Assembly: GCF_000214825.1 (NCBI RefSeq)
Contig: NC_015581.1
Span: 1,798,001-1,862,000 of the forward strand
Source of the DNA: Thiomicrospira cyclica ALM1
GTDB taxonomy: Bacteria; Pseudomonadota; Gammaproteobacteria; Thiomicrospirales; Thiomicrospiraceae
Direction: 5' to 3'
Length of the DNA: 64,000 bases
The position numbers were made by a program, and so were the translations under genes. The stretch's first letter is position 1. The number at the start of each line of letters is the position of its first letter. Positions 1-50,097 of this stretch are shown piece after piece. The notes under the pieces were generated by a model that did no database searches, was not told where the DNA came from, and saw nothing but the letters and a program-made list of their open reading frames with translations.

Positions 1-218
1 AAGCCTAACACCATAGCCCAAAAAATAGATTTAAACGCCAAACCAATCTCAGCGTTCGCTAACTCAGCACCGCCCTTAAGGCCTATTGCAATTAATAGGT
101 AGATGGATAAGCCTTTGCCCAATCCATCAGGAAATTTCAAATCTGACTTAATAACTTTTGCAAAAACGCCTAGCGCGAAAAACAAAATAGCTGGAATTAA
201 AATTGCATCTAAACCCAT
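1..218 (-). CDS. sbtA: SbtA-type bicarbonate transporter, N-terminal part
   Basis: The first about 72 residues read MGLDAILIPAILFFALGVF and continue into a second hydrophobic segment ending in an IGLKGG motif. This resembles the start of the SbtA family of sodium-dependent bicarbonate symporters of the inner membrane. The gene runs off the left edge, so most of it is unseen. The ATG at 216-218 has a good ribosome binding site (TAGGAG) just upstream. It follows sulP and the carboxysome operon on the same strand, which fits a role in supplying bicarbonate to carboxysomes. The family call rests on the N-terminus and context only. Confidence 0.72.
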   Translation of the reverse strand, partial: MGLDAILIPAILFFALGVFAKVIKSDLKFPDGLGKGLSIYLLIAIGLKGGAELANAEIGLAFKSIFWAMVLG

Positions 219-345
219 TGTAGACACTCCTAATTAAAATCAAATGTCATGATAGGGCAAAAAAATTTTAAAATTAAATCGGAATTTCCTTCCTTACCCA
301 TAGATCTAACTCTATGAATTAAGCGTTATCTGATTGAATGCTTTG

Positions 346-1665
346 TTAATTAAGACCATCTTGCTCTTTAAATTTCTTAAGGTAGTTGCGGACAATATCA
401 TGCGTACCGATGTTGTCCCGCTCTTTAAAAATAACAAAATTGATAAATGCGTGTATTGCTAGTGCAATCAACAGCCCTTCAAATATACCGACCCAGTAGA
501 CCAGTAACCCACACAGAATGGCTAATAACATGGCATAACGTCCAAAATTAGCGACATGCAACAGGCCCAAAATCATTTTGATGCCAACAAATATCATGAT
601 AATACCCAGAGCAAACTTGGGTAAAAACTCTAAATATTGAATGTTGATAACAAAGAAAGTGATCACAAGCGCTATAACTAAAACTGAAAACTTAGTAAAG
701 GCACCTGCTAGTCGATTCGTTGAGCTCTTGGCAAGACCATCTAAGTTTGTCATGCCACCAAAAAAACTTGATCCCATATTCGAAACCCAAATAGACAGCA
801 GGCTATTATTACTATTACATTTACGTTTCAGTGGATCTATTTTTTCAATCGCAGCATTGCTCATAACCTGCTCTATAACATCAATAATCGCCAACATAAG
901 CGCAAAGCCAATCGCGTAAGCCCAAAGACTTACTGAGTTGAAATCTGGTATGGGTAAAGCAAGAGCAAGCTCGGCATCTTCAACCTGCAACATCGACAAG
1001 GGTAAAAACAAGGAAACTAAAATTCCGAATACAATAAGTGCAAAATAGGGTACCGCAGGCTGGCGATCCTTAAATAATTTAAACAACACCAAGAACAGTA
1101 TCGCACCAACCAATGATAAACCAATCATTAACAGACGCTCCGTTGTAAAAAAACCATCTGCGGTTACAACTGACTCTGGAACCTCATAGGTGAAAACCAA
1201 AAAGGCCAGGACAATTTTTAAACCAATACCCGCCAATAGACCCTCAACTAAATAGGTCGGCACTAACTGCAATATGTAACGCTGCCAATTGAACTTCCAT
1301 ATAAGAGCCTGGAATGCGGCCGTTAGGAATATGATAAATGCCATATTCGAAATACCGAATATCGATACCCCCATGGCCAAAATAGGTGCCAAGCCTGCTG
1401 CTATACCAGGCGCTCCAATAAAATTACCAGGGCGAAACCAAGCAAACATCCAACCAATAAATGAGGCGAAAGCAACTGTAGCAAGGCCTACCTGAATAGG
1501 ATAATCCGACATGATAGCAATACCGATAGACAAAGGTATTGCCATAGCAGCGGTAATAATACCGGCCTGAATATCACGTGTAACATATTGCTTCTGAAAA
1601 GCCGCACAGCTCTTAGTTTCGCACTGTACGTCCTGTGAGGAATTTGAATTTGCTGTGTTAGACAT
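346..1665 (-). CDS. SulP family anion (likely bicarbonate) transporter
   Basis: A 439-residue polytopic membrane protein with SulP features: an N-terminal proline-rich membrane motif, the GAPGIAAGLAPI stretch near residue 80-90, and the FFGGMTNLDGLAKSSTN motif around residue 300 that matches the SulP consensus region before the C-terminal helices. It ends about 20 residues after the last helix, so it lacks the cytoplasmic STAS domain of many SulP proteins. I chose ATG 1663-1665; an upstream in-frame GTG at 1761 would add 32 poorly conserved residues. SulP members, including cyanobacterial BicA, can take up bicarbonate, and the position between the carboxysome operon and sbtA supports that substrate. 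Sulfate or another anion remains possible. Confidence 0.8.
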   Translation of the reverse strand: MSNTANSNSSQDVQCETKSCAAFQKQYVTRDIQAGIITAAMAIPLSIGIAIMSDYPIQVGLATVAFASFIGWMFAWFRPGNFIGAPGIAAGLAPILAMGVSIFGISNMAFIIFLTAAFQALIWKFNWQRYILQLVPTYLVEGLLAGIGLKIVLAFLVFTYEVPESVVTADGFFTTERLLMIGLSLVGAILFLVLFKLFKDRQPAVPYFALIVFGILVSLFLPLSMLQVEDAELALALPIPDFNSVSLWAYAIGFALMLAIIDVIEQVMSNAAIEKIDPLKRKCNSNNSLLSIWVSNMGSSFFGGMTNLDGLAKSSTNRLAGAFTKFSVLVIALVITFFVINIQYLEFLPKFALGIIMIFVGIKMILGLLHVANFGRYAMLLAILCGLLVYWVGIFEGLLIALAIHAFINFVIFKERDNIGTHDIVRNYLKKFKEQDGLN

Positions 1666-1833
1666 AAAAAAATACTTTCGTTTAGGGCTCAATACAAGAT
1701 CCATCAAACCAATTAAGAACCTACGTTCTGCTGAAACGACATTAATCAAAGCTTTTGGCACAAAAGACTAATGAATAACAATTGCATTAAGAAACATAGA
1801 GGTACGACATCTTTTAAACATCCCTCTACTCAT

Positions 1834-1879: not shown

Positions 1880-2125
1880 TTATTTTTTGTATACGCGTTG
1901 TATATCTTCAGCTAGTTTGTATTCATCTGCTGACAGGTTATCACCAGCAGCGTAGATAATTAAACTCGCAAAATCACGCCCAAAGCTGATGTTAGGATAT
2001 AGATTAGCATCTTCTGTGATACTGGCTACATCGTCTAAAAAATCACGCAAGGCTGTATAATTCTCAAACAAGAATTTTGCTTCAAGGGTCGTAGAGTTTT
2101 TGTTTTCACGCCAACTCTCACTCAT
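1880..2125 (-). CDS. Alpha-carboxysome RuBisCO assembly factor (acRAF), PCD-like
   Basis: An 81-residue protein of the pterin-4a-carbinolamine dehydratase-like fold found at the end of many cso operons. The family member in alpha-carboxysome bacteria acts as a RuBisCO assembly chaperone rather than a pterin dehydratase. Visible family features are the FENYTALRDFLDDVASITEDANLYPNI segment and the later SADEYKLAEDIQRVY helix. The start overlaps the stop of the ferritin-like gene by an ATGA arrangement, which suggests translational coupling. It is the last gene before the operon terminator. The assignment depends on both similarity and position. Confidence 0.8.
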   Translation of the reverse strand: MSESWRENKNSTTLEAKFLFENYTALRDFLDDVASITEDANLYPNISFGRDFASLIIYAAGDNLSADEYKLAEDIQRVYKK

Positions 2126-2664
2126 AAAAATCCTCTGCTCATTTGCTGAGTTCTTGATTGTGCAATGTAGTCAGCCGACCACTGACGAATTCTCATCAAC
2201 TGATCCTGCTCTTCTTCATATAAACGACCAAAAAGCTCGGCATCCTGAATTGCACCAAGATTAGCGCTAAAGTTATAAGCCTGTTCATATAAATTTATTA
2301 ACTGCACTTCATGCAATTCACAAATAGACAAAGCTTCTATAACATCAAAGGACGGCTTTGAAGGCGTAAGAATTGATCCTGCCGGCAATGCGCCATGATC
2401 AACCATGCGTTCGGTCAATTCAGAAGCATGACGAAGTTCTTCGTTAGCTAACTGTACAAACTGTTCCGCAAACGCATCTTCAGAGCGTTTTTGAGACAGT
2501 GCTGCATGAGCGAGATACTGCTGAGCAGCAGAGAACTCAAGACTCATAGCACGACCCAAAAAACCAAGTATTTGAGGATTCATGCCGTTAGCGCTGCGTA
2601 ACTCACGGCGAGTAAGCTGACCTACTCCTGCCATTACACTTCTGCTGTTAGTACGATAAGGCAT
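2122..2664 (-). CDS. Ferritin-like (bacterioferritin-type) carboxysome-operon protein
   Basis: A 180-residue predicted four-helix protein. Helix signatures include SLEFSAAQQYLAHAALSQ and a later ANEELRHASELTERM stretch, which carry the E...E..H pattern expected of a di-iron ferritin-like centre. Genes of this type are regular passengers in cso operons, where their role is not settled; iron handling or oxidative protection are proposed. It has a good ribosome binding site (TTAGGAG) and is coupled to acRAF downstream by an ATGA overlap. The first 30 residues are basic and lie before the helical core. Confidence 0.75.
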   Translation of the reverse strand: MPYRTNSRSVMAGVGQLTRRELRSANGMNPQILGFLGRAMSLEFSAAQQYLAHAALSQKRSEDAFAEQFVQLANEELRHASELTERMVDHGALPAGSILTPSKPSFDVIEALSICELHEVQLINLYEQAYNFSANLGAIQDAELFGRLYEEEQDQLMRIRQWSADYIAQSRTQQMSRGFL

Positions 2665-2713: not shown

Positions 2714-3022
2714 TTACAGACGTGCTGCTGGGTTAAGACCCGCAACCAGTACTGGCTCAACTTCTTTATGAGGACGTGCAATAATGTGAGCCGCTACAAG
2801 GCCATCACCAACACGTTCACAAGCGTCAGCACCAGCACGAACCGCTGCGTTTACCGCACCAGTTTCGCCACGAACCATAACAGTTACATAACCACCACCA
2901 ACAAACTCACGTGTAATTAAACGTACTTCCGCTGCTTTTGTCATCGCATCAGCTGCTTCGATAGCAGGAACTAGACCGCGAGTTTCAATCATTCCTAAGG
3001 CAATACCGTATTCATTGCTCAT
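2714..3022 (-). CDS. csoS1: Carboxysome shell hexamer CsoS1, second copy
   Basis: A 102-residue single BMC-domain protein that forms hexameric facet tiles of the carboxysome shell. It starts with SNEYGIALGMIETRGLVPA and holds the KAAEVRL and GDGLVAAHIIARPH motifs of CsoS1 proteins. It is nearly identical to the copy at 3098-3397 except for the C-terminal tail, which here ends LVAGLNPAARL. The duplication extends into the leader: both copies have the 12-mer described at 3064-3075 about 42 bases before the start. Two close CsoS1 paralogs are usual; I cannot assign the A, B or C letter from sequence alone. Confidence 0.95.
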   Translation of the reverse strand: MSNEYGIALGMIETRGLVPAIEAADAMTKAAEVRLITREFVGGGYVTVMVRGETGAVNAAVRAGADACERVGDGLVAAHIIARPHKEVEPVLVAGLNPAARL

Positions 3023-3097: not shown

Positions 3098-3397
3098 TTA
3101 AGCTTGCTGAAGAGTTGAAGTTAGTACAGGTTCAACTTCTTTGTGCGGACGTGCAATAATGTGAGCCGCTACAAGGCCATCACCAACACGTTCACAAGCG
3201 TCAGCACCAGCACGGACCGCTGCGTTTACCGCACCAGTTTCGCCACGAACCATAACGGTTACATAACCACCACCAACAAAATCACGAGATACTAAACGTA
3301 CTTCGGCTGCTTTAGTCATCGCATCAGCTGCTTCAATTGCTGGAACAAGACCACGAGTTTCAATCATACCTAGAGCGATACCATATTCAGTTGACAT
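3098..3397 (-). CDS. csoS1: Carboxysome shell hexamer CsoS1, first copy
   Basis: A 99-residue BMC-domain shell protein, first of two tandem CsoS1 paralogs. It differs from the downstream copy at a few positions (for example LVSRDF against LITREF) and in its tail, which ends LTSTLQQA. A strong ribosome binding site (TTTAGGAGAA) precedes ATG 3395-3397. The 118-base gap after csoS4B carries two hairpins, which could allow separate expression, as shell hexamers are needed in far higher amounts than the CsoS4 pentamers encoded just upstream. Confidence 0.95.
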   Translation of the reverse strand: MSTEYGIALGMIETRGLVPAIEAADAMTKAAEVRLVSRDFVGGGYVTVMVRGETGAVNAAVRAGADACERVGDGLVAAHIIARPHKEVEPVLTSTLQQA

Positions 3398-3462: not shown

Positions 3463-3517
3463 GTAAAAACAAATGTTTTTACTGACTCTACCAATAAATC
3501 TTCTCAACAAGAAGATT
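3463..3517 (-). promoter_or_regulatory. Two stem-loops between csoS4B and csoS1
   Basis: Hairpin 1 (3497-3517) pairs AATCTTCT with AGAAGATT across 5 bases and overlaps the csoS4B stop codon. Hairpin 2 (3463-3482) pairs GTAAAAACA with TGTTTTTAC across 2 bases. Neither has a long U-run, so partial attenuation, mRNA processing or protection of the downstream csoS1 message are more likely than full termination. The function is inferred. Confidence 0.55.
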
Positions 3518-3776
3518 AATCCTTATCAACGTCCAGTGGCCAATTATCAATAATGCCACTAATCGTTAAATCTGTTAAAAAACGGTCATCACCTGATGCC
3601 GTTCTTGCAGCTGAGTTTGCGATGGTAAAAACCCATTCACCAACCTTGCACCCAATCGGGTCTAGAGCTACAGCTGTGCCTCCTGAGACACTTTTTAATA
3701 CCTTAACCGGTAGATGACCAAGGTCTTCTAATCGACTTGTAAGTATTAGCTGATGTGTTACTTGATGGATTTCCAT
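3516..3776 (-). CDS. csoS4B: Carboxysome vertex pentamer CsoS4B
   Basis: An 86-residue bacterial microcompartment vertex protein (CcmL/EutN family, BMC-P) that caps the corners of the shell. Family motifs are ALDPIGCKVGEWVFTIANSAAR and LTDLTISGIIDNW. I chose ATG 3774-3776, which overlaps the csoS4A stop as TGATG and gives the MEIHQV start expected from known CsoS4B proteins; an in-frame TTG at 3788 would add four residues. It is translationally coupled to csoS4A, its usual partner. Confidence 0.93.
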   Translation of the reverse strand: MEIHQVTHQLILTSRLEDLGHLPVKVLKSVSGGTAVALDPIGCKVGEWVFTIANSAARTASGDDRFLTDLTISGIIDNWPLDVDKD

Positions 3777-4024
3777 CAACCTTCCCAATTATCTATAATA
3801 CCAACTATAGTAAGGTCACTAGGGTAGGCTTTTGTACCTGTTGCGTCACGTGCAGCAGAGCTGCCCACACAAAGCACCCAGTCACCAGGCTTACATCCAA
3901 CAGCATCGACTGCAACCATCGGTGTTCCATCAGCCCTTTCTCTCACTAAAAGCAATGGTTTATGATCCATGCTCGCAATTCGATTGGTTGACACTATGGC
4001 TCTATCTACTTGGTATATCTTCAT
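3776..4024 (-). CDS. csoS4A: Carboxysome vertex pentamer CsoS4A
   Basis: An 82-residue BMC-P vertex protein. It begins MKIYQVDRAIVSTNRI and has the VDAVGCKPGDWVLCVGSSAAR and SDLTIVGIIDNW motifs that define CsoS4A. Its ATG overlaps the stop of the preceding 258-codon gene by ATGA, and its own stop overlaps the csoS4B start. In reference alpha-carboxysome operons the gene directly before csoS4A is csoSCA, so the identity of this gene marks the site where CsoSCA is missing. Confidence 0.95.
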   Translation of the reverse strand: MKIYQVDRAIVSTNRIASMDHKPLLLVRERADGTPMVAVDAVGCKPGDWVLCVGSSAARDATGTKAYPSDLTIVGIIDNWEG

Positions 4025-4797
4025 TGGCCAACATTCCCAATCTTAGGCGACAGTATTACGACTGCCATAAACAAAATAACGCTTAACAATATCCGACTTG
4101 ATCGCGTAATAACGAGATTTGATTTAAACAAAACATCGTTTAGATAAAGTCTTATTAACTGAAGGCCAAGGTTTATATCTACTTTAGCCACAATCTTATC
4201 AATTGTATTAATACTAACACTGTAAATTTGCCCATCAGTCTTAATTTCAAGACCGGAACTCATCGTGGAGCTGTTAAGAGAGAGTCTTACCTCTATAGCA
4301 CTATCAGGCACTATATAAGAACTAATTGCGTTCTTAAATCCATTAATCGCTCGTCTGTCAAGACCACTTTCCATATCATCAAGGTCAAACTTAAAAGTAG
4401 GCTTTATATTAAATTCATGCACTATTGGAACGCTTAATAAACGAACTGTTAAATAATAATAGAAGAGATCCCACTGAGTCTTCGTCCTAAGACTTAGCCC
4501 CCTTAGCCACAGGTTATCGGGAACATGGCCATAATCTCTATAAAGTTCGTTTTTAACCGTTTCAATAAAACACGGGTCCATCCTAGATGTAAATAAACGT
4601 GAAATACGCCTATTTAAACCTGCAACATCTACCTCCATTAAATATGGAGAAATAGCTGGTAAAAGAGTCGATGACTTAGGCTTAGCACCGATTCTATTAC
4701 CAGAATCATTAACTGAGTTTTTGTTGCTATATTGCACTGCAATATAGTTATTTGTTATCACTCGCCCGTTTGGGGCTCTAATAACTTCACTCTGCAT
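4021..4797 (-). CDS. Unrecognised 258-aa protein in the csoSCA slot, C-terminal membrane anchor
   Basis: I do not recognise this protein. It starts 3 bases after the csoS2 stop and overlaps csoS4A by ATGA, so it is firmly inside the carboxysome operon, exactly where csoSCA normally sits. CsoSCA is about 500 residues with a Cys/His/Cys zinc site; this protein has 258 residues and a single cysteine (about residue 77), so it cannot be that enzyme. Residues 1-45 are polar. Residues about 55-105 (around the YGHVPDNLWLRGLSL stretch) faintly recall the N-terminal domain of CsoSCA, which is only a suspicion. Residues about 235-252 form one hydrophobic helix. The gene looks more AT-rich than its neighbours by eye. 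It could be a CsoSCA remnant or a new component. Confidence 0.85.
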   Translation of the reverse strand: MQSEVIRAPNGRVITNNYIAVQYSNKNSVNDSGNRIGAKPKSSTLLPAISPYLMEVDVAGLNRRISRLFTSRMDPCFIETVKNELYRDYGHVPDNLWLRGLSLRTKTQWDLFYYYLTVRLLSVPIVHEFNIKPTFKFDLDDMESGLDRRAINGFKNAISSYIVPDSAIEVRLSLNSSTMSSGLEIKTDGQIYSVSINTIDKIVAKVDINLGLQLIRLYLNDVLFKSNLVITRSSRILLSVILFMAVVILSPKIGNVGQ

Positions 4798-4800
4798 ATC

Positions 4801-6954
4801 TTAGGCTCTGGCACCACCAGAAACGGTAACACTTGCGCCATGTTTAGTATTACCGGAAGAACCAGTAATTGGACTTTCGGCTACCTGCGGATTTGTTTCT
4901 GGTCTAAAGTCGCGAGCAAGATTTTGAGGCTTTGAAGAATTACCCTTCATACTCACGTTACGACCTTTAGCCCACCGGCCTTCAGTGCCAGTCACGCTAT
5001 TTCCACGTCCCCAAGAATCTCCAGTAATAGAGAATCCACTATCTGCGCCATGGCCCGTTAATCGAGAAGGCGAACCTTCAACAATTTGGGGTTCAGACAT
5101 AGCCATTGATGGTGATGGCATAGACATCATCATCGGCTGTGCCATCACGTGCATATTTGCTGGATTCATCAAGACTGGAAAGTCAGACTCACCAGGAACT
5201 GATGCAACACTGTTCTGACACATAGAAGACGTCTGATCAACACCCTGATATGGCGTACCACTTACATTACTACAAACCCCCTGTTGCGCACCAGTCAGCC
5301 CCATTGGGCCTGGCTGTGTTCCCGTGGTTGGCTTTGCATAAAAGCCAGGCCTGTTCATATAATCTGGTTTTACCTTTTCAATTGGTAAATCACACTCTTC
5401 AGCTGCATCAAGGCTTTGATAGTTTGACCCTGTTACACTTTTGCAGCGACCCGCCCCAGCACCGGTAATTTTACCGCCTAAGCCAGCTCTATCACCCGTG
5501 ACTTTATGCCCTGCAAATGTTTTTGATTCCGCAACTTTGGTAGCAGCAGGTTGCAAAGTATCTCCACAGCGAGCAGTTCGTGCTTCGCGTGATTGATATT
5601 CGCTTCCAGAAACTGTTTTACAAAAACCCGCTTCATCGCCTGTAACAGGCTTATAAAAATTTACGTTAGTGCCCGATACACGATTTCCAGATGACGTTTC
5701 AGAAACATCAACTTTTGTTGGCACTGACATAATGCCTGGCCTTGCCTGACGTGACGGCTCTTTTGTCAAATTTGCGCTACTAGATAGATACTGTGTACCC
5801 GTAATAGAACGCTCCTGACCAGCCTCCAAACCCGTCATTGTTTCGCGAGGTAACATTGAAGGGCCAGAAATAATCTGGTTTTTTGCAGTACGTGATTGGC
5901 TCACTTTGCTTGGACCAGACGCTGGCTTACTTCCACAAAACATTTCCCCCTGATCAGCCGGGAGATATTCAGTACCAGTTACACCACGGCATTGCCCTGG
6001 TTCTGTACCAGTAACCTTTTCAGACAAACCAACTTCAGTACCACTTACATGGCGACCTGATGCTGTCTGTGTCATGGCCACTTTTCGTGGATTAGCTTCA
6101 GGTTTAAAACTACATTTAGCCTGAAATTCATTTGGACTTGTATATTCAGTGCCGCTTATTACTCGACATGAACCGGCCTCTGATCCTGTCATCTTTTTCG
6201 TATCAGATACCATTGTTCCACTCACTGTCTGGTCATAACCAGTCTGAGAAAACCCAACTTTTGCAGGATATGGTTCAGATGTTGCTGGTTTACGTGTGAT
6301 CTTACCGGTTGGACGACAAACACCTGATGATGTTTTGCCTTGTGTACAACGTTGCTGCCTCACTTCACGAGCAATCTGACGCCCACTTGCGTCTGGGTTT
6401 GCCATTTTTGCAATACTTGATACAGAGCTTGAACCTGAAAGCTTTGCTTTCAATGCCGCCTTACCTTCAGACTGCGCTTTACGGTAAGTACGTGCAACTA
6501 AACGGCCTTTAGGCATAACTGTGCCCATAGGTTTAACACCTGTTGCTTTACTTTTAACTTCCTGACGTGAACGCTCAACACCTACTGGTGCAGCATGCTC
6601 AACGGATTTGTTATCAGTTATTATTGCTTCAACAACGGGCTTTTGTCTTGGTTGACGTGCTGGCTGAGATTTCGCTTTGTATCCACTGCCTTTGACAAGC
6701 TGTTTACGGCGTTCAACAGCTGCCTTACGACCCTCGTTAACAACGGGGGCTGCTGTGGCAACCGTGTTTCTTGAACGTGCTGGCGTAGCGATAACTTCAC
6801 TACGCACAGACTCCGAACTCTTGACAGATGCAGAGGTATTCACAATAGGCTGATGAGCTTTAGGAGCAACTGACGCTCCCTTGCCCTTCGTTTGAGCTTG
6901 ACGGCGAGCTCTTGCGAGATCGCGACCAGTTAGCCCTTGTGTATTTGAACTCAT
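4801..6954 (-). CDS. csoS2: Carboxysome scaffold protein CsoS2
   Basis: A 717-residue largely disordered scaffold that links RuBisCO to the shell. The N-terminal region (about 1-220) has basic motifs such as RDLARARRQAQ, TYRKAQSEGKAALK and REVRQQR, the type that binds RuBisCO. The middle (about 235-560) has five repeats with alternating [V/I]SG or TG motifs and paired cysteines; the third lacks its cysteines (GLEAGQERSITG). The C-terminal region carries further GTxxG-type motifs and ends VSGGARA. The ribosome binding site AGGAGG precedes ATG 6952-6954. A candidate -1 frameshift signal lies at 5638-5662 and would give a 434-residue short form, like the CsoS2A known in Halothiobacillus. One CAGGCCTG palindrome occurs at 5346. 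Confidence 0.95.
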   Translation of the reverse strand: MSSNTQGLTGRDLARARRQAQTKGKGASVAPKAHQPIVNTSASVKSSESVRSEVIATPARSRNTVATAAPVVNEGRKAAVERRKQLVKGSGYKAKSQPARQPRQKPVVEAIITDNKSVEHAAPVGVERSRQEVKSKATGVKPMGTVMPKGRLVARTYRKAQSEGKAALKAKLSGSSSVSSIAKMANPDASGRQIAREVRQQRCTQGKTSSGVCRPTGKITRKPATSEPYPAKVGFSQTGYDQTVSGTMVSDTKKMTGSEAGSCRVISGTEYTSPNEFQAKCSFKPEANPRKVAMTQTASGRHVSGTEVGLSEKVTGTEPGQCRGVTGTEYLPADQGEMFCGSKPASGPSKVSQSRTAKNQIISGPSMLPRETMTGLEAGQERSITGTQYLSSSANLTKEPSRQARPGIMSVPTKVDVSETSSGNRVSGTNVNFYKPVTGDEAGFCKTVSGSEYQSREARTARCGDTLQPAATKVAESKTFAGHKVTGDRAGLGGKITGAGAGRCKSVTGSNYQSLDAAEECDLPIEKVKPDYMNRPGFYAKPTTGTQPGPMGLTGAQQGVCSNVSGTPYQGVDQTSSMCQNSVASVPGESDFPVLMNPANMHVMAQPMMMSMPSPSMAMSEPQIVEGSPSRLTGHGADSGFSITGDSWGRGNSVTGTEGRWAKGRNVSMKGNSSKPQNLARDFRPETNPQVAESPITGSSGNTKHGASVTVSGGARA
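5638..5662 (-). promoter_or_regulatory. Candidate -1 programmed frameshift signal in csoS2
   Basis: In the csoS2 reading frame the heptamer A AAT TTT (5656-5662) is followed after exactly 5 bases by a hairpin GCCTG-TTA-CAGGC (5638-5650). Slipping back one base gives AAA TTT TTA TAA, a stop almost at once, after about residue 434. Slippery heptamer, spacing and hairpin match the known pattern, and csoS2 frameshifting is established in related bacteria. The 5-bp stem is short, so efficiency is uncertain. Confidence 0.55.
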
Positions 6955-6987: not shown

Positions 6988-7332
6988 TTATAGACCGCGT
7001 GGACGATAAACTACGAATTCATGCCCTTTACACTGAGTATAATTGTCATAACCAACCATACGGATCAAATGATCAGGATATGCGCGCTTACACTCTTCTA
7101 GCTCTGCAAGTACTTGATCTGGGTTGCGCATACCGAAAAATGGTAGCTTCCACATACCCCAATAATGCTCAGATGCATTTTGCGGTGCTTCATGCTCAAG
7201 TGCTGGAGTCCAGCCTTGGTTAATGATGTATACGATTTGATCGTAGATTTCGTCCTGACTCAAAGGCGGCAAAAACGAAAAAGTTTCATAGGTGCGCGTA
7301 GTGCGGAAATCACCTGAACTCATTACTGACAT
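6988..7332 (-). CDS. cbbS: RuBisCO small subunit, form IA carboxysomal
   Basis: A 114-residue RuBisCO small subunit. The [20 protein letters not shown] start, the [26 protein letters not shown] core and the [11 protein letters not shown] end are characteristic. Eight copies cap the L8S8 enzyme in the carboxysome. It lies 35 bases after cbbL and 33 bases before csoS2 on the same strand, so the three are almost certainly co-transcribed. ATG 7330-7332 follows a good GGAGAATT ribosome binding site. Confidence 0.97.
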
Positions 7333-7367: not shown

Positions 7368-8780
7368 TTAAGCGTCAAGCTTATCAACAGTGTCAAATTC
7401 AAACTTGATTTCTTTCCAAGTTTCTAGTGCAACGGCTAGTTCTGGGCTATGACGCGCTGCATCACGAAGAATGTCACCACCTTCACGCTCTAGATCACGA
7501 CCTTCGTTACGTGCTTTAACACAGGCTTCCAAAGCAACACGGTTAGCTGCGGCGCCGGCTGCGTTACCACCTGGGTGACCTTGTGTACCACCACCGAACT
7601 GAAGAACTGAGTCATCACCGAAGATTGTAACCAATGCTGGCATGTGCCATACGTGGATACCACCTGAAGCAACCGCCATAACACCTGGCATTGAACCCCA
7701 GTCTTGATCGAAGAATACACCACGTGAGCGATCTTCTGGAACAAATGCTTCACGCAACTGATCTACGAAACCTAGTGTAGAGGCACGATCACCTTCCAAC
7801 TTACCAACAACGGTACCAGTATGTAGATGGTCGCCACCTGACAAACGTAAGCACTTAGCTAATACACGGAAGTGAATACCGTGGTTAGGGTTACGGTCGA
7901 TTACAGCGTGCATGGCGCGGTGGATGTGTAACAACATACCGTTTTTGCGACACCAATTTGCTAACGACGTGTTAGCAGTAAAACCACCAGTTAAGAAATC
8001 ATGCATAACGATACGCACACCTAACTCTTTTGCATATTCAGCACGTTCCATCATGTCTTCACAGGTTGCAGCTGTTACGTTTAGGTAGTGACCTTTAACT
8101 TCGCCAGTTTCTGCTTCTGCTTTATTGATTGCATCAGCAACGAATGAGAAACGATCTCTCCAACGCTGAAATGGCTGAGAGTTAATGTTTTCGTCGTCTT
8201 TGGTTAAGTCCAAACCACCACGCAAACACTCATATACAGCACGACCGTAGTTCTTAGCAGACAAGCCTAACTTTGGCTTGATAGTACAACCCAGCATTGG
8301 GCGACCATATTTGTTTAATTTATCACGCTCAACCTGGATACCGCTTGGTGGACCACCGCAAGTTTTGATGAATGCAACTGGGAAACGAATGTCTTCAAGA
8401 CGGAGTGAACGAACAGCCTTGAAACCGAATACGTTACCAACCAGCGAGGTTAGTACGTTAACAACAGAACCTTCTTCGAAGAGATCCAATGGATAAGCGA
8501 TAAATGCGTAGAACGCATCTTTGTTACCTGGAACGTCTTCGATTCTATAGCAACGACCTTTGTAGAATTCCATGTCGGTCAATAGGTCGGTCCATACAGT
8601 GGTCCAAGTACCTGTTGATGACTCAGCTGCAACAGCTGCCGCTGCTTCTTCACGTGGAACACCCGCCTGTGGTATTACTTTGAAACACGCCAAAAGGTCA
8701 GTGTCAAGCGGAGTGTAATCTGGCGTCCAATAGGTCAGTTTATAATCCTGAACACCAGCGTTAAATGTTTGATTTGCCAT
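7368..8780 (-). CDS. cbbL: RuBisCO large subunit, form IA carboxysomal
   Basis: A 470-residue ribulose-1,5-bisphosphate carboxylase large subunit that carries out CO2 fixation in the Calvin cycle. Catalytic motifs are complete: TIKPKLGLS (first active-site lysine, near residue 170), [10 protein letters not shown] (carbamylated lysine), [10 protein letters not shown] (histidine) and [13 protein letters not shown] (loop 6 lysine). Form IA and the adjacent cso genes mark the carboxysomal enzyme. The start at 8778-8780 has a GAGGTGA ribosome binding site that overlaps the stop of a 12-codon leader ORF. No cbbR regulator gene lies in the window. Confidence 0.98.
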
Positions 8781-8787
8781 ACTACTA

Positions 8788-8826
8788 TCACCTCAAATTA
8801 AAGGTTGTTACGAACTCACCGAACAT
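8788..8826 (-). CDS. Candidate 12-codon leader peptide upstream of cbbL
   Basis: The reading frame [12 protein letters not shown] starts at ATG 8824-8826 with its own ribosome binding site (TTTGAGGT, 7 bases before the ATG). Its TGA stop is built from the same bases as the cbbL ribosome binding site, so translation of the leader could couple to cbbL. The two sites look like a small duplication (TTTGAGGTAATTATTATG against TTTGAGGTGATAGTAGTATG). The codons for EFVT contain the 12-mer whose complement precedes both csoS1 genes. Short ORFs with good sites also arise by chance. Confidence 0.45.
8807..8818 (-). repeat. Inverted copy of the csoS1 leader 12-mer in the cbbL leader
   Basis: The minus-strand transcript reads TGAGTTCGTAAC here, the exact complement of the GTTACGAACTCA carried before each csoS1 start on the same transcript. 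Confidence 0.7.
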
Positions 8827-8867
8827 AATAATTACCTCAAACCATAATGACTAATTGGAAAATCTAA

Positions 8868-8962
8868 TGCTTTGTATAGACAATTATCAATACACGGTGC
8901 CAATTTATAATATTTTTTTATGCTTTGTGAAAATTTTGTGCTAAAAACCCAGTACCAATACC
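8868..8962 (-). promoter_or_regulatory. Probable cbbL promoter region
   Basis: AT-rich DNA between the sirB2-like gene and the cbbL leader. A possible sigma-70 promoter is TTGGCA (8898-8903), 17 bases, TCTATA (8875-8880); the -35 is good and the -10 is weak. TTAT and ATAA half-sites flank the -35, which could suit a LysR-type activator such as CbbR. This reading is by eye only. Confidence 0.35.
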
Positions 8963-9353: not shown

Positions 9354-10286
9354 TTAATTATTGTTACGACTGTTTTTTAATTGTACCGACAACTCATCAA
9401 GCGTAATGTTAATTACTCCAGACTTATCTCTGTTTGGACCCTTCATTATTTCTTGAGCCGCCCAAGCGTGGCCCTGCACAACCTCATAAGTCGCTGTCAC
9501 CTGATGCTTGATTGAAGACTGCGCTTCATAAAACGCCTCAACGGCCTTTAATGTATCACGACGCAGCAGACCTTTTGGAGCATTTACACTTTTAGCATTC
9601 GTTGCACCCATAGCTTTAAGGTCGCGCATAACATCCATCGCGTTTTTATAAACAATCCGCACCTGCTCAACATCCATTACCGGCTGACCAAAACCTGAGC
9701 GAATAAGGGCATCCCCTATATCATGCATGTCAATAAAATCATTAAACCGCTGATGCGCCGCATCACCCTCTACGGCTAACCAGGCCTGGCGCAATTCCTT
9801 TAAGGTATCAGGCCCGAACGTGCTAAATAACAGTGCCCCACCTGGTTTAGTAACACGACGAACTTCAGCAAAGACAGCATCCAGATCATGACACCACTGC
9901 AACATAAAGTTACTCACCACCAAGTCGAAGGATGCATCTGCAAATGGCAACGAAAAAGCATCGGCTTGAATCAATTTAACCGGTAATGTTTTCCTAGACC
10001 AGAACTGCCAAGAAGGCGGCTTGGCCATCAGTCTAGCCTTAGCCTGCTGCAACATATTATCAGCAAAATCGACCGCATAAATATCCGCCTTAGGATAATG
10101 CTGATAAAGCTGCTCGGTTAACAAACCGGTACCACAACCAAGCTCGAGAATTGAATGCTTATCACTGGTTAATAGCAAAGTGCGTTCTGCCATATCCTCC
10201 GCAGTTCGACGCTGCACTACGGCCGCCTCATCATAGGTATCTGCCGCTTTTGAAAAATGTTGTCTAACACGCAGGCGATTAATCAA
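9354..10286 (-). CDS. bioC: Malonyl-ACP O-methyltransferase BioC
   Basis: A 310-residue SAM-dependent methyltransferase. The glycine-rich SAM site reads ILELGCGTGLLTEQL near residue 45, followed by the acidic VDFADNM and the LVVSNFMLQWCHD motif typical of BioC. It methylates malonyl-ACP so that fatty-acid synthesis can build the pimeloyl chain of biotin. It overlaps bioH by 8 bases. Its C-terminal part (ATYEVVQGHAWA) also matches BioC. One CCAGGCCTGG palindrome lies at 9780 within the gene. Confidence 0.92.
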   Translation of the reverse strand: MINRLRVRQHFSKAADTYDEAAVVQRRTAEDMAERTLLLTSDKHSILELGCGTGLLTEQLYQHYPKADIYAVDFADNMLQQAKARLMAKPPSWQFWSRKTLPVKLIQADAFSLPFADASFDLVVSNFMLQWCHDLDAVFAEVRRVTKPGGALLFSTFGPDTLKELRQAWLAVEGDAAHQRFNDFIDMHDIGDALIRSGFGQPVMDVEQVRIVYKNAMDVMRDLKAMGATNAKSVNAPKGLLRRDTLKAVEAFYEAQSSIKHQVTATYEVVQGHAWAAQEIMKGPNRDKSGVINITLDELSVQLKNSRNNN

Positions 10287-11073
10287 ATGACTTCCCAGTA
10301 TTTATAAAATTAGTTATATATTTGCTGGTTAATTCGGGGTGCGATAGAAATGGAATATGCGCAGCACCCTCTAAAACCTTAACTTGCCCCGCTTCCGCTT
10401 GCTCAACCCAGACCTGCAGGCCTAACGCAGAAACTAATGGATCATTTTCACCCAGCAGCCACAAACAAGGTCGTTTATTGTGGCTCATTTTCTCTCGCAG
10501 GTCTAGTGACTGCAGTAGCTGTAGGCCCTGGTAAAGCCCTTTAAAAGTGGCAAGTTTTCGACCTAAATATTGCTCTCGAAGTTGTTTAGTAAATACTCGT
10601 GCCTGATCACCACCTTGGCACTGCAATGCATAAAACTTATGCAGTAGCGCTTTACCATCTTCTTGCAACGCATGAATAAAATCTATCATGAGCGTTGGTG
10701 CCACGCCATAACGCCACCCCTGTGCTTGCTGAAAACAGGGGGTGGATGCCAAATTCACTACACCCAAAATACGCTCCGGGTTCTGTAAAAATATTTGCTG
10801 AGCCATCAAACCACCCAAAGACCAACCCAGTAACCAAGTCGGTTGATCGGGTAATCTGGCGACCAAGTCTGCCAACCAGGCCTGGTTCACTTGACCTGCT
10901 GTTGCACTTAACGATAAAGCTATTTCCGCCTGCTCACCAAACCCAGGTAATTCAATAAAATGCAATTTAAAGAGTTCTGCCAAGTATTTTTCTGCCCAAG
11001 CCTGCCAAACCTGATTATCAGCTCCCCAGCCATGAATTAGGACTAAACTAGGCCTATCTCGCTCTACTGCCAT
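10279..11073 (-). CDS. bioH: Pimeloyl-ACP methyl ester carboxylesterase BioH
   Basis: A 264-residue alpha/beta hydrolase. The oxyanion motif LIHGWGADNQVW and the nucleophile elbow GWSLGG are clear; AAHIPFLSHPE supplies the catalytic histidine. BioH removes the methyl group from pimeloyl-ACP methyl ester, ending BioC-dependent pimelate synthesis. I chose ATG 11071-11073, which has a GGGAG site 7 bases upstream; an alternative start at 11100 adds nine residues. A CCAGGCCTGG at 10876 codes for the residues QAW. Confidence 0.9.
   Translation of the reverse strand: MAVERDRPSLVLIHGWGADNQVWQAWAEKYLAELFKLHFIELPGFGEQAEIALSLSATAGQVNQAWLADLVARLPDQPTWLLGWSLGGLMAQQIFLQNPERILGVVNLASTPCFQQAQGWRYGVAPTLMIDFIHALQEDGKALLHKFYALQCQGGDQARVFTKQLREQYLGRKLATFKGLYQGLQLLQSLDLREKMSHNKRPCLWLLGENDPLVSALGLQVWVEQAEAGQVKVLEGAAHIPFLSHPELTSKYITNFINTGKSFD

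Positions 11074-47819: not shown

Positions 47820-50097
<2,278 letters not shown>

Follow-up and report, generated by a model that had tools for sequence, protein, structure and literature searches.

In 2022, all of the Thiomicrospira examined at that time were reported to lack csoSCA, and to carry in its place what was likely a degraded csoSCA (PMC9164163). That degraded gene was later named csoSX, in a 2025 study that also counts T. cyclica as one of the alkaliphiles of the genus (PMC12628692), and a 2026 review noted that CsoSX retains its N-terminal region (PMC12918739); one passage of that review adds that mutation of csoSX impacts carboxysome formation. A passage of the 2025 study, crediting Wieschollek 2024, further reports an iota-class carbonic anhydrase (iota-CA) as the carboxysomal carbonic anhydrase of Thiomicrospira (PMC12628692). 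Studies of CsoSCA itself demonstrated that an N-terminal peptide of the Halothiobacillus neapolitanus protein binds to Rubisco and is by itself enough for encapsulation (PMC10614612), and that the N- and C-terminal domains of CsoSCA are each able to enter minishells (PMC12646314). The core facts of the system analysed here, that csoSX is a remnant and that an iota-CA was recruited, are therefore already published; what is added is an intermediate within the genus that has CsoSCA and no detectable iota-CA, a set of loci carrying both CsoSCA and iota-CA, and two candidate binding motifs, one in the N-terminus of CsoSX and one in the tail of the iota-CA.

The window, meaning the whole stretch of 64,000 nucleotides that was analysed, spans positions 1,798,001 to 1,862,000 of the complete genome (1,932,455 bases, or 1.93 Mb) of Thiomicrospira cyclica ALM1. 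Its carboxysome operon lies on the minus strand in the order cbbL, cbbS, csoS2, csoSX, csoS4A, csoS4B, two csoS1 genes, a ferritin-like gene and a pterin dehydratase-like gene, followed by a terminator-like hairpin, a SulP-family transporter gene and an SbtA-like transporter gene (Table 1); in T. pelophila, the SulP beside the carboxysome locus has been tested as a transporter of dissolved inorganic carbon (PMC12628692). The csoSX gene begins with an ATG codon located 3 bases past the stop of csoS2, and overlaps the start of csoS4A by 4 bases. A sequence-only reading of the window had described, between csoS2 and csoS4A, a single AT-rich gene of 258 codons whose product has one cysteine and no Cys/His/Cys zinc site, and each element of that description agrees with the present analysis: the coordinates and frame are as given, C76 is the only cysteine, and the GC content of the gene is 36.6%, lower than that of the window (46.5%) and of the surrounding Rubisco and csoS genes (42-49%). 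C76 is not conserved beyond the group of closely related genomes to which the window belongs (T. cyclica, Thiomicrospira sp. ALE5 and genome G007, hereafter the window's group). The low GC content is shared by csoSX in all eight genomes that carry it (33-38%), whereas the csoS2 and csoS4A genes alongside it stand at 43-47%.

Table 1. Features of the carboxysome locus in the window (positions counted from the first base of the window)
Feature	Position	Strand	Remarks
csoSX (X)	4021..4797	-	258 aa, catalytically dead, very probably CsoSCA-derived, in csoSCA slot; PMC9164163, PMC12628692
CsoSX N-terminal 15 residues, MQSEVIRAPNGRVIT	4753..4797	-	best-conserved part of family
CsoSX residues 65-112, putative remnant of CsoSCA N-terminal domain	4462..4605	-	hhalign; CsoSCA_N Pfam in 4/8 members
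CsoSX residues 236-254, C-terminal hydrophobic helix	4036..4092	-	Kyte-Doolittle 2.36
csoS2	4801..6954	-	717 aa; Pfam CsoS2_M E=2.3e-100
cbbS, Rubisco small subunit	6988..7332	-	sequence and operon position
cbbL, Rubisco large subunit	7368..8780	-	sequence and operon position
csoS4A, shell pentamer	3776..4024	-	orthologues in 80 loci of other genomes
csoS4B, shell pentamer	3516..3788	-	Pfam EutN_CcmL E=1.2e-15
csoS1 shell hexamer genes (two)	2714-3022, 3098-3397	-	
ferritin-like (Bfr) carboxysome-locus gene	2122..2664	-	Pfam Ferritin E=1.1e-12
pterin dehydratase-like gene	1880..2125	-	Pfam Pterin_4a E=3e-4, under its cut-off
terminator-like hairpin	1862-1839	-	after pterin dehydratase-like gene
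SulP-family transporter, adjoins carboxysome locus	346..1761	-	Pfam Sulfate_transp E=1.4e-21
SbtA-like bicarbonate transporter, 5' part	3..227	-	gene runs off window

A domain search of the complete genome did not find the C-terminal Pfam domain of CsoSCA, a negative result that is meaningful because the same search recovers that domain from 23 of 57 related genomes, and a search of the genome with the CsoSCA_N profile returned no match. The earlier observation that no other csoSCA-like frame is visible in the window thus holds, and the absence of csoSCA extends to the entire genome. No alpha- or beta-class carbonic anhydrase was found in the source genome either. Apart from the iota-CAs described below, a single carbonic anhydrase-related gene was found there; it encodes a YrdA-like gamma-CA homologue of 185 aa, near position 49,000 (G000 C1:49224-49511; L193 1270-1827).

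The CsoSX protein of the window is difficult to place when considered individually: it matches no Pfam or NCBIfam family, nor any PDB sequence significantly, an AlphaFold2 model of it, made together with two relatives, was unusable (mean pLDDT 38), and a scan of contigs with the protein as query returned nothing (the same scan with CsoS4A recovered the loci). Comparisons at the level of the family are more informative. The Pfam domain CsoSCA_N matches four of the eight CsoSX proteins, one of them above the curated cut-off (28.7 bits against 27.5), with no Pfam match to the proteins of the window and of G007. Alignment of profiles with hhalign against 79 CsoSCAs gave P=6e-6 for the five longer CsoSX proteins, P=1.5e-5 for all eight, and P=0.014 for the window's group of three alone, in which residues 65-112 fell on the CsoSCA N-terminal domain; none of 100 column shuffles was as good in any of these comparisons, and the window's group matched the longer members with P=2e-6. 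Judged from these profiles, the N-terminal region of the CsoSX family is homologous to that of CsoSCA, although the homology is weak for the window's group alone: the direct profile match of the window protein is weak, and its link to CsoSCA runs mainly through its longer relatives and the shared slot. A profile search had been proposed as a check by the sequence-only reading; it failed to assign the window protein to any family, and succeeded for the family as a whole through CsoSCA_N and hhalign. The faint resemblance that the same reading had noted between residues 55-105 and the CsoSCA N-terminal domain accordingly proved real, and its alternative suggestion of a remnant that kept the docking domain holds for part of that N-terminal region.

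The remainder of the protein gave a different result. Neither the catalytic (PF20686) nor the C-terminal (PF08936) domain of CsoSCA was found in the window protein, and hhalign produced no convincing match between these domains and the C-terminal half of X; the best, for the window's group, covered 21 residues with P=0.053 (0 of 60 shuffles as good), and the other groups remained within the range of shuffles. Past residue 130, most of the protein has no detectable counterpart in CsoSCA. Relative to CsoSCA (the epsilon, or divergent beta, class), the window protein therefore shares the operon slot and a partial N-terminal domain, and differs in its half length, its missing Cys/His/Cys zinc site and its lack of a catalytic or C-terminal domain.

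Examination of the same slot in related genomes, another check that had been suggested from the sequence, found the arrangement in most genomes of the genus. While csoS2 is present in all nine of its genomes, eight of them (among them Thiomicrospira sp. ALE5, or G002, and T. microaerophila, or G004) carry an X-type gene of 250-332 aa and no CsoSCA between csoS2 and csoS4A. The ninth, G005 (locus L036; 83% complete), encodes a normal CsoSCA of 515 aa in that slot, together with an alpha-CA and a beta-CA; a tree built from four locus proteins, concatenated, separates it from the other eight as an outer branch (100% support). The window protein thus resembles the CsoSX of T. pelophila, T. thyasirae, T. 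microaerophila and others in genus, in slot and in the absence of active-site residues, and resembles known CsoSX proteins in its N-terminal similarity to CsoSCA and in the iota-CA elsewhere in the locus (PMC9164163, PMC12628692, PMC12918739); it differs from other CsoSX proteins in that its group is the shortest (250-258 aa, versus 307-332 aa) and in that it and the G007 protein are without a Pfam match. Among CsoS4A loci from other genomes, 78 of 80 have a CsoSCA-like match, one of which is the T. microaerophila X protein itself. Two more carboxysome loci, L040 (G009) and L100 (Betaproteobacteria bacterium SCN2), also lack csoSCA at its usual place: there csoS4A directly follows csoS2, with no gene between them.

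Two iota-CA genes lie on the same strand 2-5 kb past the low end of the window (1,795,275-1,795,823 and 1,793,339-1,793,878; 10276-10824 and 8340-8879 of locus L031), further along the same side as the SbtA-like gene, with LysR, Ham1 and csoS1D genes as neighbours. Both encode the CaMKII_AD/SnoaL domain and the HHHSS signature that characterise the class (the (H)HHSS motif being defined in an iota-CA review, PMC8425729), and the first matches structure 3h51, which that iota-CA review discusses as the X. campestris iota-CA, with E=2e-38. These genes are separate from csoSX and unrelated to it, and together with the published report for the genus (PMC12628692) they bear out the suggestion, already raised in the sequence-only reading, that another enzyme was recruited; carbonic anhydrase chemistry is probably provided here by this iota-type enzyme encoded just outside the window. 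An iota-CA gene is found in the locus of all eight X-bearing genomes, in two copies in the three genomes of the window's group and in one copy in the others. None was found in G005, where the interval between LysR and Ham1 contains no recognisable copy; because that genome is 83% complete, the absence is less certain for the genome as a whole than for the locus. Some Thiomicrorhabdus-like genomes have both enzymes beside one locus: in G029 (L177) and G035 (L176) an iota-CA follows a carboxysome locus with intact CsoSCA, and in G016 (L178) the two are encoded within 13 kb. The replacement consequently appears to have been stepwise, which suggests that a two-enzyme intermediate existed before CsoSCA lost its catalytic part.

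Taken with the missing csoSCA, these observations make it very probable that csoSX is a descendant of csoSCA that has lost the enzyme part and partly kept the docking end, while an iota-CA supplies the activity. On this view, csoSX no longer has the zinc site, and neither a catalytic nor a C-terminal domain can be recognised in it; what it retains is its place in the operon, a short conserved tail at the N-terminus and a portion of the helical N-terminal domain of CsoSCA. The protein is most likely still packed into the carboxysome, where it may aid assembly by touching Rubisco, the shell or both, as the N-terminus of CsoSCA does, with activity presumably contributed by the iota-class enzyme at the other end of the locus (in two copies here). 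An unrelated enzyme would then be able to take over from the essential one of a carboxysome, with the old gene persisting minus its catalytic part, an exchange that bears on cargo recruitment by alpha-carboxysomes and on their engineering.

The principal alternative, that csoSX is a decaying pseudogene kept merely through its position in an essential operon, draws on its AT-richness in all eight genomes and on its rapid divergence (46% identity between species where csoS4A retains 89%). It is nonetheless unlikely, given open frames of 250-332 codons intact in eight of eight genomes, the strongly conserved N-terminal motif, the effect of csoSX mutation stated in the passage of the 2026 review cited above (PMC12918739), and dN/dS ratios below 0.5. 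Those ratios (0.25-0.47, against 0.07-0.14 for csoS2, at most 0.07 for csoS4A and at most 0.06 for iota-CA, taken at unsaturated synonymous sites) are rough because synonymous divergence is high throughout, and indicate that csoSX is constrained, but loosely: purifying selection still acts on it, in relaxed form. That an unrelated new gene instead took over the slot would accord with the lack of a family match for the window protein and of a CsoSCA relative for most of its length past residue 130, and is rendered very improbable by the match of the family to the CsoSCA N-terminal domain, the same slot and the consistent placement of the aligned stretch. Least plausible of all is the proposal that CsoSX is itself a new type of carbonic anhydrase: it occupies a carbonic anhydrase slot in a genome without CsoSCA, alpha-CA or beta-CA, but no cysteine is conserved across the family, conservation outside the N-terminus is very low, and the activity is explained by the iota-CA that a passage of the 2025 study reports as carboxysomal in this genus (PMC12628692).

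The sequence-only reading had also called the protein membrane-anchored, on account of a C-terminal hydrophobic helix that is indeed its strongest hydrophobic 19-mer (residues 236-254, Kyte-Doolittle 2.36). Although the 19-mer is hydrophobic in the two closest relatives as well (2.16 and 1.83), such a tether to the cell membrane, whether for carboxysomes or for proteins belonging to them, is very improbable: the stretch in G002 is approximately 15 residues long and ends at the very C-terminus, and the equivalent helix of the five longer members contains charged or polar residues, with the best hydrophobic window elsewhere (1.55-1.63) in four of the five and at the C-terminus in G008 alone (1.89). 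A conserved transmembrane helix was not found across the CsoSX family, strong hydrophobicity being confined to the window's group of three close relatives, and the membrane-anchored label is unsupported as a family trait; for helix 236-254, a role in packing or oligomer formation is likelier.

The first 15 residues of CsoSX, the best-conserved part of the family, show a mean pairwise identity of 59%, versus 12-35% elsewhere in the protein (the second most conserved stretch, residues 76-90 within the CsoSCA-like part, reaching 35%), and R7, P9, G11 and T15 are invariant. The pattern R-[AS]-P-[SN]-G-[RK]-[VA]-[IV]-T is a candidate short linear binding motif; none of the CsoSCA N-termini inspected was found to contain it, and it may therefore have been newly acquired. 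Of 83 CsoS2s, 30 contain a similar element, CRPTGKI, including those of the window's group, and none like it was found in CsoS2 of genomes with longer X proteins, for which reason the likeness was not relied upon. The iota-CAs of X-bearing genomes, in turn, all carry an N-terminal tail of the form [IV][TS]G[TS]xGI...[VI]S, whose resemblance to the shell-binding C-terminal repeats of CsoS2 ([VI][TS]G) is only suggestive (hhalign P=0.015, 2 of 150 shuffles as good), with same-genome pairs mostly not significant and within shuffle noise. One tentative scenario, rather doubtful at present, is that docking was split from catalysis, such that an iota-CA steered by its conserved tail initially joined CsoSCA in the carboxysome as an additional enzyme, and CsoSCA then shed its enzyme part and became a scaffold, CsoSX, with a short binding motif of its own; here the stepwise order agrees with the species pattern, and the idea of a targeting tail comes from the weak tail match. 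Independently of that scenario, an iota-CA-like gene is located approximately 1.5 kb downstream of csoS4A in Thiothrix caldifontis (L141 10263-10763), in a locus that also contains CsoSCA.
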